A stretch of 34,932 nt of DNA from the NCBI GenBank assembly GCA_002688315.1, contig NZCN01000005.1, positions 1 through 34,932 of the forward strand, read 5' to 3'. Under the pieces are notes generated by a model, which searched no databases, was not told the DNA's origin, and saw only the letters and a list, made by a program, of their open reading frames with translations. The position numbers and the translations under genes are program-made. Within the stretch, counting starts at the first letter, position 1, and every line of letters begins with the position of its first letter. Positions 5,259 to 20,579 of the stretch are shown one piece after another. The DNA comes from Candidatus Woesearchaeota archaeon (lineage in GTDB: Archaea; Nanobdellota; Nanobdellia; Woesearchaeales; UBA10216).

Positions 5259-6032
5259 ATGAGTGTTGAAGGAGAGGTACGAGGCGGAGTAGCAAGACCT
5301 GACCCAAATGACGGGCCTGTTATTAAAACCATTAAATCAAGAAGAAGCATTCGTTCTTACATGGATGTTCCTGTTGAATGGGATAAGATAATCACCACAA
5401 TTGAAGCAGGAATGATGGCTCCAAACGCAGGCAACCTTCAGATTTGGAGGTTTGTTGTTGTTCGCAATCCAGACAAAAAAAAGCAGATTACTGATGCATG
5501 CCTGCAGCAGTATTGGATGGAGCAAGCTCCAGTCCACATAGTAATATTCGCCAAGTTACAAAAGGAAGAACAATATTATGGAATCAGAGGAAAGCGCCTT
5601 TACTCAATCCAGGATTGTTCCATGGCTGCAATGAACATAATGCTTGCAGCTCAGGAGCTTGGCTTAGGGACATGCTTTGTAAGCGCTTTTGATGAAGAAG
5701 CTTTGTCAAGGATTTTCGGCCAGCAAGAAGATATAAGGCCTCAAGGAGTTATCACCATGGGCTACACTGATGATAAACCAGAAATTCCTCTCAGATACAG
5801 AGTAGAAAGTTTAATCGGAGTTGAAAATTACGGCACGGCAATGAACCCTGAAGGATATAAAGGAGGCGGCAGAATTGCAAGCGATACTGCTATAGGAACT
5901 TACCGCTATGCTGAAGGCATTTCAAAATACACGCAAAAAGCAACTGAGGAAATTGGAAAAGTAACTGCCAGGAAACGAAACAATTTTTTAAAAAAAATAC
6001 TTGACCAATTCAAGAAGAAACCTAAACAATAA
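5259..6032 (+). CDS. Nitroreductase-family flavoprotein, 257 aa
   Basis: FMN-dependent nitroreductase-like oxidoreductase. The amino end has the FMN phosphate-binding signature SRRSIRSY, followed by MAPNAGNLQIWRFVVV, and the carboxy half has LAAQELGLGTCFVSAFDE and GVITMGY, all standard for the fold. Substrates of archaeal members are mostly unknown. After the core domain (about residue 190) there is a lysine-rich 60-residue tail not typical of minimal members. ATG at 5259 lies about 27 bp after a TATA-like box. A second, shorter paralogue is at 8454-9077; the two are clearly different proteins, not a recent duplication. Confidence 0.9.
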   Translation: MSVEGEVRGGVARPDPNDGPVIKTIKSRRSIRSYMDVPVEWDKIITTIEAGMMAPNAGNLQIWRFVVVRNPDKKKQITDACLQQYWMEQAPVHIVIFAKLQKEEQYYGIRGKRLYSIQDCSMAAMNIMLAAQELGLGTCFVSAFDEEALSRIFGQQEDIRPQGVITMGYTDDKPEIPLRYRVESLIGVENYGTAMNPEGYKGGGRIASDTAIGTYRYAEGISKYTQKATEEIGKVTARKRNNFLKKILDQFKKKPKQ

Positions 6033-6065: not shown

Positions 6066-7277
6066 ATGAACAATTCAGTATCCTGGACGCGCAAATACGT
6101 TCCAAAAAGCAGCAATGAAGTAATAGGACAGCAATTGCCATTACAAAGATTAAAAAGATTCATTAACAGCTACAAAACATCAAGAAAAAAAGCTTCACTT
6201 CTGTATGGATTAACTGGTTCTGGAAAAACATGCAGCGTGTATGCAGTTGCTAACGAGCTGAATTATGAAGTCCTTGAAATTAATGCTTCTGATTTTCGCA
6301 ATGCAAACTCAATAAAAGAAATAGTAGGCACTGCTTCCTCTCAAATGAGCTTGTTTGGTAAAGGCAAGATAATTTTAGTTGATGAACTGGACGGCATTTC
6401 AGGACAAAAAGACAGAGGAGGTATTCCTGCTCTTTCAAAAATCATCTCAAAGTCGTCGTTTCCTATTGTAATGACTGCCAATGATCCTTGGGACAAGAAA
6501 TTCTCAACTTTAAGAAGAGCGTCTGAAATGATTGAGTTCATGCAGCTCAAAAGCGATTCAATTCATCAAATCCTTGGTGATATTTGCAAAAAAGAAAGTG
6601 TTGAAGCAGATGAACATGCATTAAAATCAATGGCAAATCGAAGCGGCGGGGATTTAAGAGCTGCAATCAATGATTTGCAAATACTTTCCGCTTCTACAAA
6701 AAAGCTTTCGCAGAGTGACGTTGATAATCTTTCTGACCGCAACAGAGTTGAGAGCATGCTTGCAGCCTTAACAAAAATTCTGAAAACAACAGACTTTGAT
6801 ACAGCAGTATCTGCTTTTGATGAAATTGAAGAGAAGCCTAACGAATGGTTTTTGTGGGTTGACGAAAACATTCCTGCAGAGTACAAAAACCCAAAATATT
6901 TGGCAAAAGCTTACGAAGCAATATCATCAGCAGATGTTTTTAATGGACGAATTACACGCAACCAATACTGGCGCTTTCTTGTGTACATTAAAATCCTGCT
7001 AACAGCAGGCGTTGCTATCTCTAAAGAAACCAAACAGGAAACTCCTGCTAATTACAAAAAGACTTCACGTTTATTAAAAATCTGGATGGCTAACATGCGT
7101 TACAATAAGCGAAAAAACATAGCAGAAAAAATAGCAGAACACACTCACACTTCGCCAAATAAAGTAATTCAGGACATGCATTATTACAAAACTATGATAA
7201 AAAACAGCAGCTACAGCAAACAGCTTGCCGACGACCTAAACCTCGACCAGGAAGAAGTTGAGTGGCTTTCTAAATAA
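6066..7277 (+). CDS. rfcL: Replication factor C large subunit (clamp loader)
   Basis: 403-residue AAA+ ATPase that, with RfcS, opens the PCNA ring and loads it at primer ends. Walker A GLTGSGKT is at residues 48-55 and Walker B ILVDELDG at 103-110; the amino end SWTRKYVPKSSNEVIGQ is characteristic of RfcL. It is at the short end for archaeal RfcL, and I see no clear PCNA-interacting peptide at its carboxy terminus, which ends in LDQEEVEWLSK. The ATG at 6066 follows a weak TATA-like box near 6034-6042. The stop codon is one base from the end of a tRNA gene on the other strand. Confidence 0.93.
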   Translation: MNNSVSWTRKYVPKSSNEVIGQQLPLQRLKRFINSYKTSRKKASLLYGLTGSGKTCSVYAVANELNYEVLEINASDFRNANSIKEIVGTASSQMSLFGKGKIILVDELDGISGQKDRGGIPALSKIISKSSFPIVMTANDPWDKKFSTLRRASEMIEFMQLKSDSIHQILGDICKKESVEADEHALKSMANRSGGDLRAAINDLQILSASTKKLSQSDVDNLSDRNRVESMLAALTKILKTTDFDTAVSAFDEIEEKPNEWFLWVDENIPAEYKNPKYLAKAYEAISSADVFNGRITRNQYWRFLVYIKILLTAGVAISKETKQETPANYKKTSRLLKIWMANMRYNKRKNIAEKIAEHTHTSPNKVIQDMHYYKTMIKNSSYSKQLADDLNLDQEEVEWLSK

Positions 7278-18432: not shown

Positions 18433-18513
18433 ACTACCACAATGAAAACTTGGCTATTTTAATGTTTCTAAAAACAAACCACTCCACTAGCCACTGGACA
18501 CACCACGATAGGG

Positions 18514-18521
18514 TATTTAAA
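18514..18521 (+). promoter_or_regulatory. TATA-like box of the structured RNA / homing endonuclease unit
   Basis: GGTATTTAAACC contains this box. Initiation about 27 bp downstream would fall at 18541-18545, exactly where the long inverted-repeat RNA begins. This argues that the hairpin is the 5' end of a transcript rather than random palindromes. Confidence 0.55.
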
Positions 18522-18542
18522 CCACTAATTCTATTGTGCTCA

Positions 18543-18623
18543 GAGGACACGCAAAACTCCCAAATTATGCTTTTCGGTCTATTGACGCGAAAAGCAATTA
18601 CGGAGTTTTGCTAAGAAGTCCTC
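18543..18623 (+). ncRNA. Predicted structured RNA upstream of the homing endonuclease
   Basis: Three nested, fully complementary stems form one long hairpin: GAGGAC 18543-18548 with GTCCTC 18618-18623; GCAAAACTCC 18551-18560 with GGAGTTTTGC 18602-18611; GCTTTTCG 18569-18576 with CGAAAAGC 18588-18595. Internal loops of 2/6 and 8/6 nt separate them and the tip is an 11-nt loop. Twenty-four exact pairs in 81 nt is far from chance. A promoter lies just upstream. It could be a stand-alone RNA, a 5' leader controlling the endonuclease, or a guide; the two lower stems plus internal loop faintly resemble an H/ACA hairpin but no ACA follows. Confidence 0.6.
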
Positions 18624-18636
18624 CTCGTCGAATTAA

Positions 18637-18667
18637 GAGATTTCTTACAACAAGTGCAAGAAATCTC
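18637..18667 (+). other. Second hairpin before the homing endonuclease
   Basis: GAGATTTCTT (18637-18646) and AAGAAATCTC (18658-18667) are exact complements around an 11-nt loop. It lies between the large hairpin and the ribosome-binding site of the endonuclease (GAGGT at 18688-18692), so it is part of the mRNA leader and may affect translation or processing. Confidence 0.55.
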
Positions 18668-18698
18668 AACGTTAGATTGGGATTTCAGAGGTACTAAA

Positions 18699-19391
18699 AT
18701 GAATGAAAAAGAAGCAGAGTTAATAGGAATACATACCGGAGACGGTTCGTTATACAAAAATAAAAATTCTCGAAATTGGGAAGTGCGAGGTTCTTTAGAT
18801 GAAAAGGACTATTACAACAATCATATCGTTCCTTTACTAATGGATATTTTTAAACTTGAATTCAGAGCAAAATTCAGAAGTGGAGGTGCTAATGGATGCT
18901 ATGGTGTCCAAACTAGCAAAAAAATAGTTGCCGAATTTTTCATTAAACAAGGTTTTGAAGCAAAATCAAAACTATATACTGGAAGAGTACAAGAATCTAT
19001 ATTCAATACTAACAGAACATGCAAATACGCATTTTTGCGAGGTATTTTTGATACTGATGGTTGCATACGTTTTGATCGAATTAACAAACAGAAATATCAT
19101 ACGTATCCAAGAGTTGAATTTGGCTTTGCTTCAGAGGCATTAAGAGATGGTTTGGCAAAGCTAATAAGTTCTTTGGGTTTCCGTTGTTTTACTTGGGGAA
19201 AGCGGAATTATAGTATCTGCATAGCAGGCAATAAGGAAGTCGCTAAGTGGTTCAGCAAGGTAAAACCCGCTAACAAAAAGCATTTAAATAGATACGGATT
19301 ATGGCTTAGACAAGGGTACTTTATGCCGCGGTCGCATAGCCTGGCCATTGCGGTGATTCGCAAGAACCGTATGATTGCTACCAGGCGGTAA
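18699..19391 (+). CDS. LAGLIDADG homing endonuclease
   Basis: 230 residues from ATG 18699, which has a GAGGT ribosome site seven bases upstream; the longer frame from GTG 18654 begins inside a hairpin and is unlikely. Two LAGLIDADG-type helices are visible: AELIGIHTGDGSLY near the amino end and YAFLRGIFDTDGCIRF in the middle, each with the catalytic acidic residue in G-D-G / T-D-G. Two motifs in one chain mean a monomeric enzyme cutting a long DNA site. The last 21 residues are encoded by the 5' half of the downstream tRNA gene, and the stop TAA (19389-19391) lies inside that tRNA's anticodon arm. Confidence 0.88.
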   Translation: MNEKEAELIGIHTGDGSLYKNKNSRNWEVRGSLDEKDYYNNHIVPLLMDIFKLEFRAKFRSGGANGCYGVQTSKKIVAEFFIKQGFEAKSKLYTGRVQESIFNTNRTCKYAFLRGIFDTDGCIRFDRINKQKYHTYPRVEFGFASEALRDGLAKLISSLGFRCFTWGKRNYSICIAGNKEVAKWFSKVKPANKKHLNRYGLWLRQGYFMPRSHSLAIAVIRKNRMIATRR

Positions 19392-19439
19392 ACATTCACT
19401 GTCCGAAAGGGCACGGGAGTTCAAATCTCCCCCGCGGCG
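19325..19439 (+). tRNA. Class II tRNA, Ser-type, with an interrupted anticodon arm
   Basis: Acceptor GCCGCGG/CCGCGGC, discriminator G (19439), D stem GCA/TGC, T arm GGGAG-TTCAAAT-CTCCC and a long variable arm TGTCC-GAAA-GGGCA are all perfect or near perfect; class II with G73 indicates serine. Between the D arm and variable arm are about 48 nt rather than 17. The outer anticodon stem is GTGA (19353-19356) / TCAC (19396-19399). Within the insert, TTGCTA (19375-19380) has the form T32-T33-GCT-A37 of tRNA-Ser(GCT), which would need about 18 nt removed before it and 14 after it. A single intron would instead give CGC, which fits no class II tRNA. Anticodon therefore tentative. No CCA encoded. Confidence 0.7.
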
Positions 19440-19498
19440 TTTTTTCTATCAAAAATGCAAAAGTAATCTTTTTAAAACCATTCAAATTCACTAATATT

Positions 19499-20083: not shown

Positions 20084-20116
20084 ACTATAGCGACACTATA
20101 GAGTCACTATGGTGAC
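20084..20116 (+). promoter_or_regulatory. Triple 11-bp operator repeat of the toxin-antitoxin operon
   Basis: ACTATAGCGAC, ACTATAGAGTC and ACTATGGTGAC follow head to tail with no gap (20084-20094, 20095-20105, 20106-20116). The array runs from the TATA-like box (20077-20084) into the antitoxin start codon (ATG 20109). One unit per helical turn puts all copies on one face of DNA, as expected for cooperative binding of the antitoxin as autorepressor. Confidence 0.65.
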
Positions 20117-20327
20117 TACAATCCAAGTAAGTGAGAAGCTAAAGGAAACTCTTGCAAAAAGGCGTTTTACAAGCAAAGACACATATGAAGAAATTATCTG
20201 GGATTTGCTAGAAGACACTATGGAACTTTCTGAACAGACAAAAAAGGATATTGCAATAGGTCGCAAGGAAATTGCTGAAGGTAAAGGTATTCCACTCTCA
20301 CAAGTAAAGAAAGAGTTGGGATTGTAA
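20109..20327 (+). CDS. RelB-family-like antitoxin
   Basis: 72 residues. The amino end MVTTIQVSEKLKETLAKRRF has the form of a ribbon-helix-helix or AbrB-like antitoxin that binds DNA as a dimer, followed by a helix (DTYEEIIWDLLEDTMEL) and a charged toxin-wrapping tail. It stops immediately before the toxin ATG. Transcription is predicted leaderless from TTATATAC at about 20077-20084, with the triple repeat over the start site pointing to autoregulation. Exact antitoxin family (VapB, RelB or a DUF) not certain. Confidence 0.8.
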   Translation: MVTTIQVSEKLKETLAKRRFTSKDTYEEIIWDLLEDTMELSEQTKKDIAIGRKEIAEGKGIPLSQVKKELGL

Positions 20328-20579
20328 ATGTACGAAGTAACACTTTCTCCAAAGGCACACCGACAGGTTAAGAAGTTACCTAAGTTAGTGGCTGAGCGAA
20401 TAGTAGATGTCTTAGATCGAGCTAAAATCCGTCCAGAACAGCATTTTGAGAGATTAGTGGGAAAAGAATTGTACAAACTGCGCGTAGGAGACTACAGAAT
20501 AATTGCAGAAATAATTCACAATACGCTGCACATTTTAGTATTGGAAATTGACCACAGGAAAAGAATTTACAAACGTTGA
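20328..20579 (+). CDS. RelE/ParE-family toxin
   Basis: 83 residues with the compact RelE fold: amino strand MYEVTLSPKAHRQVKKLP, central EHFERLVGKELYKLRVGDYRIIAEI, and carboxy LVLEIDHRKRIYKR. In RelE-type toxins the basic residues of the RVGDYR and RKRIYKR region contact mRNA in the ribosomal A site, and both are present. It starts directly after the antitoxin stop, so the pair is translationally coupled. A ribosome-dependent mRNA interferase is the most likely activity; ParE-like gyrase inhibition is less likely for this sequence but not excluded. Confidence 0.88.
   Translation: MYEVTLSPKAHRQVKKLPKLVAERIVDVLDRAKIRPEQHFERLVGKELYKLRVGDYRIIAEIIHNTLHILVLEIDHRKRIYKR

Follow-up and report, generated by a model that had tools for sequence, protein, structure and literature searches.

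The locus described here raises the question of what a large, exactly paired hairpin is doing directly in front of a LAGLIDADG homing-endonuclease gene, a kind of gene that in archaea is often found inside introns. The window, a stretch of 34,932 nt of contig NZCN01000005.1 from a Candidatus Woesearchaeota archaeon, had been given a sequence-only reading in which the region was taken for a promoter-driven structured RNA and likened, by analogy, to the guide RNAs of IscB. The stems, the second hairpin, the TATA-like box and the downstream LAGLIDADG gene of that reading were all found in the sequence as described (Table 1). The region 18514-18699 folds at -57.8 kcal/mol (z -5.4), and a fold started at 18541 reaches z -6.4; none of 200 shuffles folded as well in either case. 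The score of the nuclease against PF14528 exceeds the curated cut-off, and no match to it was found among PDB sequences. Further along the window, at 20109-20579, lies an adjacent pair of small ORFs (72 and 83 aa) that resembles an antitoxin-toxin pair in appearance.

Table 1. Features of the leader and nuclease locus in the window, and of the cysS insert loci in two genomes
Feature	Sequence	Position	Strand	Remarks
Promoter box	CACTGGACA	18492-18500	+	
TATA-like box	TATTTAAA	18514-18521	+	
Core hairpin P1-P3, model R1		18542-18624	+	R1 85.7 bits, E ~1e-17, the window itself being in the R1 building set
P1-P3 nested hairpin, 81 nt		18543-18623		From reading the sequence
P1	GAGGAC / GTCCTC	18543-18548 / 18618-18623	+	6 bp, exact, read from sequence
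P2	GCAAAACTCC / GGAGTTTTGC	18551-18560 / 18602-18611	+	10 bp, exact
Internal loop, invariant	CAAAUUAU (5' side)	18561-18568	+	Opposite side 18596-18601
P3	GCTTTTCG / partner arm	18569-18576 / 18588-18595	+	8 bp, exact
P4a hairpin	GAGATTTCTT / AAGAAATCTC	18637-18646 / 18658-18667	+	10 bp, exact
P4b, alternative hairpin		18660-18686	+	Uses the 3' arm of P4a; 3' end adjoins the ribosome-binding site
Ribosome-binding site	AGAGGT	18687-18692	+	6 nt 5' of the ATG at 18699
LAGLIDADG homing-endonuclease gene		18699-19391	+	230 aa, two motifs; PF14528 LAGLIDADG_3, E=4.4e-7
Intron-containing tRNA gene		19324-19440	+	ARAGORN with introns; overlaps the 3' end of the nuclease ORF
cysS insert locus L014 (G000:C1)		6554-6700		
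cysS insert locus L054 (G002:C14)		5535-5700		

The sequence-only reading, sound as an observation on a single locus, had overlooked that the element is repeated in its own genome (G000), an archaeal MAG of ~0.9 Mb that carries at least five full copies. Comparison of the window DNA with this genome matched ten more places, the three shortest of which (83-90% identity, 29-52 nt) comprise the promoter part only. Copies on contigs C1, C13 and C15 match the window copy at 85-86% identity over 205-227 nt, a further and more divergent copy lies at about 30 kb on C15, and four other contigs end in half-copies, suggesting that the repeat broke the assembly. Each copy that can be read through precedes a nuclease-like ORF, and these ORFs are unlike one another; those that match the window protein do so at only 22-28% identity.

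Using BLAST, we found the element in 30 of 193 relatives, and a search with a covariance model, R1, built from 36 copies, extended it to 92 of 353 genomes of the order, with a maximum of eight copies per genome; these genomes are metagenome assemblies as far as they are named, and the model E-values are rough. In a phylum-wide sample all hits listed fall in the same order. The named records with the element are Woesearchaeota, apart from a few labelled Nanoarchaeota, Nanoarchaeia or Micrarchaeota. Viral contigs gave no exact match to the core, Rfam gave no family at gathering score and a single chance-level match at E up to 10, and no description of the element was found in the literature. Judged by sequence comparison, then, the element is an undescribed structured-RNA family of one archaeal order.

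Covariation among homologues, which had been proposed as the check on a structured RNA, was found in both sets of copies. In an unfitted alignment of 36 copies there are 91 double-change cells, against 32±6 after shuffling; in 101 copies aligned by the model, an alignment that leans towards R1, there are 236 against 70±6. Compensatory changes in the 101 copies fall at 18 of the 24 pairs, with slid controls all far lower, and a mutual-information scan of all column pairs ranked the structure's own pairs at the top and added one further pair, 29-151. Also in this alignment, covariation indicates that position 18568 pairs across the loop, and there is almost no variation in the internal loops (AC/UYAAC and YAAAUWA/WUUAY), with AAAU and UUA invariant or nearly so. 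These loops look like a site at which a host factor or ligand may bind. Downstream of the core, P4a is paired in 94.8% of cells (27 copies), with 10 double-change cells versus 3.3 in shuffles; P4b is paired in 95.9% of cells, its changes being one-sided with no double changes, and it forms part of the minimum-energy fold from 18541.

The leader is also accompanied by a conserved promoter region. The CACTGGACA box is exact in 88 of 107 leaders and in none of 102 control stretches, and 102 of the 107 have a TATA-like match, most commonly 27-36 nt 5' of the core. The combined CACTGGACA-TATA pattern has 19 matches in the window's own genome, against none for a reversed control, and also occurs 5' of tRNAs, a cas4-like gene, nuclease leaders and, in G002, the TBP gene. 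The box looks like an undescribed promoter element, and these counts support the leader having its own promoter. Transcription is likely to begin near 18541, a start that we infer from the promoter layout, under a strong promoter of housekeeping type.

The co-occurrence with LAGLIDADG genes that the sequence-only reading had suggested looking for is substantial, LAGLIDADG_3 being matched by 71 of 102 downstream products. Others match LAGLIDADG_1 or _2 or HNH_repeat, with one product phage-endonuclease-like and one weakly Mrr-like. Nearly all copies lie about 50-80 nt 5' of a mobile-nuclease gene; with ORF starts picked by script, the distance from the end of the core to the start codon spans 49-76 nt for the central 90% of copies. 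We also fetched 20 weaker matches with E between 1e-5 and 0.01. Sixteen of these have a LAGLIDADG, Mrr-type or otherwise nuclease-like ORF downstream, one an intact IS200-like Y1 transposase and one a 104-aa ORF of unclear kind; the other two are situated within decayed remnants of IS200-like elements. In the intact IS200-like element (L260, G263:C74; decayed relatives L268 and L269), the transposase gene has a leader hairpin that scores with R1, followed by a hairpin over the ribosome-binding site. Among the 102 downstream products is one case (L213, G245:C14) in which the gene behind the leader encodes the 23S rRNA intervening-sequence protein, a four-helix bundle and not a nuclease.

How the leader engages the start site differs between parts of the family. 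In a divergent subtype, the ribosome-binding site and the AUG are both taken up in the core-closing stem, and the stretch from the one through the other has an unpaired probability of 0.18 versus 0.39 when the upstream sequence is shuffled (p=3e-5); these and the following shuffles preserved base composition only. In families other than the window's, a hairpin CTCCAAAG...CTTTGGAGG encloses the ribosome-binding site; the effect is modest, at 0.28 unpaired versus 0.36 in shuffles, with 47 of 68 leaders below their shuffles. Within the window's family, by contrast, shuffles leave the site less open (0.37) than the real leaders do (0.58). The proposal that all leaders hide the ribosome-binding site was therefore rejected, all type I copies together showing no effect and the window's family going the opposite way. 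In the window itself, P4b and an outer stem make up the minimum-energy fold, with the site partly enclosed, and throughout this family P4a and P4b are mutually exclusive, having one arm in common. As the site is open there, repression in the window's family would hang on a putative P4a/P4b switch.

Leaders resemble one another according to host and not according to nuclease. They are 76% identical to others of their genome, 73% to others of their family and 60% to those of other families, and detectable nuclease relatedness is no higher within genomes than between them. Eighteen nucleases have a relative in another family; the paired leaders are 57% identical, compared with 56% to the leaders of unrelated nucleases in the other family and 70% to those of unrelated nucleases in their own (p=5e-4). 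One exception, L186, is a nuclease that appears to have carried its own leader along. The tracking of the host could reflect either adaptation to a host factor or homogenisation by gene conversion.

The window nuclease ORF enters a tRNA gene by 67 nt. The sequence-only reading was right that no host gene is interrupted, having remarked that no split host gene was visible, but it overlooked this abutting and overlapping tRNA gene. ARAGORN calls the tRNA Ala CGC with a 32-nt intron, its intron option being liable to errors on single genes; the long variable arm suggests Ser instead. A link between this intron and the nuclease was considered and rejected, because counterparts of the tRNA in relatives have introns as well and the copy in G001 has no adjoining nuclease. 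Across the family, 27 of 99 complete nuclease genes have a tRNA near the 3' end, counted when it overlaps an interval that opens 120 nt ahead of the stop and closes 100 nt past it, versus 4 that have one within the 320 nt preceding the core; this adjacency is at most indirect support for site-specific DNA cleavage and homing. By eye, several tRNA genes at L087 and L088 (G002) and at L021 and L022 (G000) seem to have short T-loop insertions. Two other genes beside leader-nuclease copies, the lhr helicase gene at L016 (G000:C15) and rnhB at L017 (G000:C9), have unusual residues in conserved motifs (TGATKT and DEAARG, respectively).

At their exon-intron joints, BHB introns have a 4-bp helix with a 3-nt bulge on either side. 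The nuclease of the C1 copy abuts a cysS gene with a 31-nt BHB-like insert between CGP and TVYDYPHIGN; removal of the 31 nt leaves CGPTVYDYPHIGN, which matches the uninterrupted gene of G001. The insert folds with two 3-nt bulges, and a strictly symmetric cut would release 30 nt, not 31. It is present only in G000 and G002, which share the C1 nuclease; cysS is uninterrupted in ten relatives, and one gave no match. Collaborative homing denotes the partnership of a free-standing endonuclease and an intron that occupies its target site (reviewed in PMC2988022), and the C1 copy, like that of G002, lies directly upstream of a cysS gene in which a short insert falls at a conserved motif. The differences are that the insert is BHB-like and not a group I intron, and that the target is a predicted one. 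From its sequence, the pair of cysS and nuclease resembles a case of collaborative homing in which the intron is of BHB type, and the insert is possibly a protein-gene intron tied to the neighbouring homing endonuclease. That it occurs only beside the nuclease suggests one possible route for archaeal protein-gene introns.

What, then, is the element? The computations establish a family with covariation, an association with mobile nucleases, host-tracking, and start-site pairing in part of the family. The most likely explanation, and one that we hold to be probably correct, is that the region serves a mobile homing-nuclease gene as its 5' leader and belongs to an RNA family that acts in cis as an expression lock. 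The RNA would fold into P1-P3, presenting the conserved internal loops as a putative site for a host factor or ligand, and a second structure between the core and the start codon would govern access to the ribosome-binding site: the P4a/P4b alternatives in the window's family, the site-containing hairpin in other families and the core-closing stem in the divergent subtype. We infer from this arrangement repression, a switch and possibly a ligand, with the outcome that the nuclease would be made rarely, or under some condition only.

Leader hairpins with the function proposed here have precedents. In phage T4, they have been experimentally proven to control translation of homing endonucleases (PMC2988022), and hairpins at the ribosome-binding site are known for I-TevI, I-TevII, I-TevIII, segB and mobE, as well as seg43 of Aeromonas phage 25 (PMC2988022). 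There, the leader structure hides the ribosome-binding site or, in seg43, sits just upstream, and here too the element lies directly 5' of the homing-endonuclease gene. The T4-type hairpins, however, have been described one by one, as simple structures belonging to phage genes, whereas the archaeal element forms a single covarying family whose large conserved core stands before many unrelated nucleases. The leader of IS200 tnpA is a second case of experimentally proven translational control (PMC12594629), with a structured 5' end of a mobile-element mRNA and a stem-loop over the ribosome-binding site. The IS200-like archaeal relative has the same two-part layout, a core hairpin followed by a ribosome-binding-site hairpin. 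The archaeal family differs in mostly preceding homing nucleases, and its likeness to the Salmonella RNA is one of layout. On the best reading, the leader would hold back translation of mobile nucleases, by analogy with the phage T4 and IS200 leader hairpins.

More tentatively, the core may be a sensor, riboswitch-like or protein-responsive, through which hosts gate unrelated selfish nucleases and a transposase, with entrant nuclease genes acquiring the host-specific form; we regard this as possible and distinctly less probable than the lock itself.

It is unlikely that the core is a separate, trans-acting small RNA, either a guide or cofactor bound by the nuclease or a regulator of other genes like the 5' tnpA RNA of IS200. 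The strong promoter of a type used for stable RNAs, found before tRNAs too, would suit such an RNA, as would the position of the core at the predicted 5' end and the run of at least four T after P1 in 69 of 108 copies; moreover, the IS200 tnpA leader is processed to an sRNA of ~111-125 nt (PMC12594629). Working against it, the spacing to the start codon is short and fixed and the start site is paired, both of which are cis features; no target-matching segment was found; and the one RNA precedes LAGLIDADG, HNH-repeat, Mrr-like and Y1 transposase genes, and so cannot fit one enzyme fold. The parallel with IscB guide RNAs finds no support. HEARO, the OMEGA RNA of IscB, is likewise a structured RNA beside a mobile endonuclease gene, but here there is no guide-like segment and no IscB or TnpB (RuvC/HNH) partner. 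RNAs of one genome that lie beside different genes are ~85% identical and contain no target-specific segment, and the apical loop matches its flanks over 7.8 nt versus 7.4 nt in shuffles, a comparison that left out the L016 match as a slicing artefact. With unrelated partners on top of the missing target segment, and with much of the family sequestering the ribosome-binding site by the 3' side of the RNA, a regulatory leader explains the element better than a guide does.

We give still less credence to a transcription attenuator, in which the leader would set read-through into the nuclease gene and the T-run after P1 would be the terminator. The T-run itself and the alternative hairpins P4a and P4b speak for it; the window and most of its family, however, have no T-run, and the divergent subtype directly pairs the ribosome-binding site and AUG.

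Very improbable is an element acting at the level of DNA and without RNA function, be it a recombination or mobility signal of the kind at IS200/IS605 ends or an expression cassette spread by gene conversion. The likeness of copies within a genome would fit, as would the related hairpin inside an IS200-like element and the palindromic nature of the element, from which its antisense matches follow. In the IS200-like relative, however, the palindrome of IS-end type is a separate hairpin outside the one related to R1, and nuclease ORFs that run into the neighbouring gene leave no space for a right end. The near-invariant unpaired loops within covarying stems, together with the start-site pairing, point to RNA.

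Finally, that the element belongs to a BHB, group I or other intron enclosing the nuclease gene is scarcely tenable and largely refuted: an intron does lie in the adjacent tRNA and a BHB-like insert in the cysS beside the C1 copy, but these inserts are distinct from the leader, an upstream half of a host gene was not identified, the core internal loop YAAAUWA/WUUAY is 7/5 nt and not a 3-4-3 BHB, and no group I/II or other Rfam intron covariance model matched.

The expression lock that we favour would extend what has been seen of leader hairpins restraining selfish nucleases, which were previously individual cases from phages and IS200. New here is a single RNA fold set before many unrelated nucleases, in one archaeal order, and tracking the host rather than the nuclease. 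It is now a testable question which host molecule reads the RNA, and whether hosts police mobile nucleases through it.
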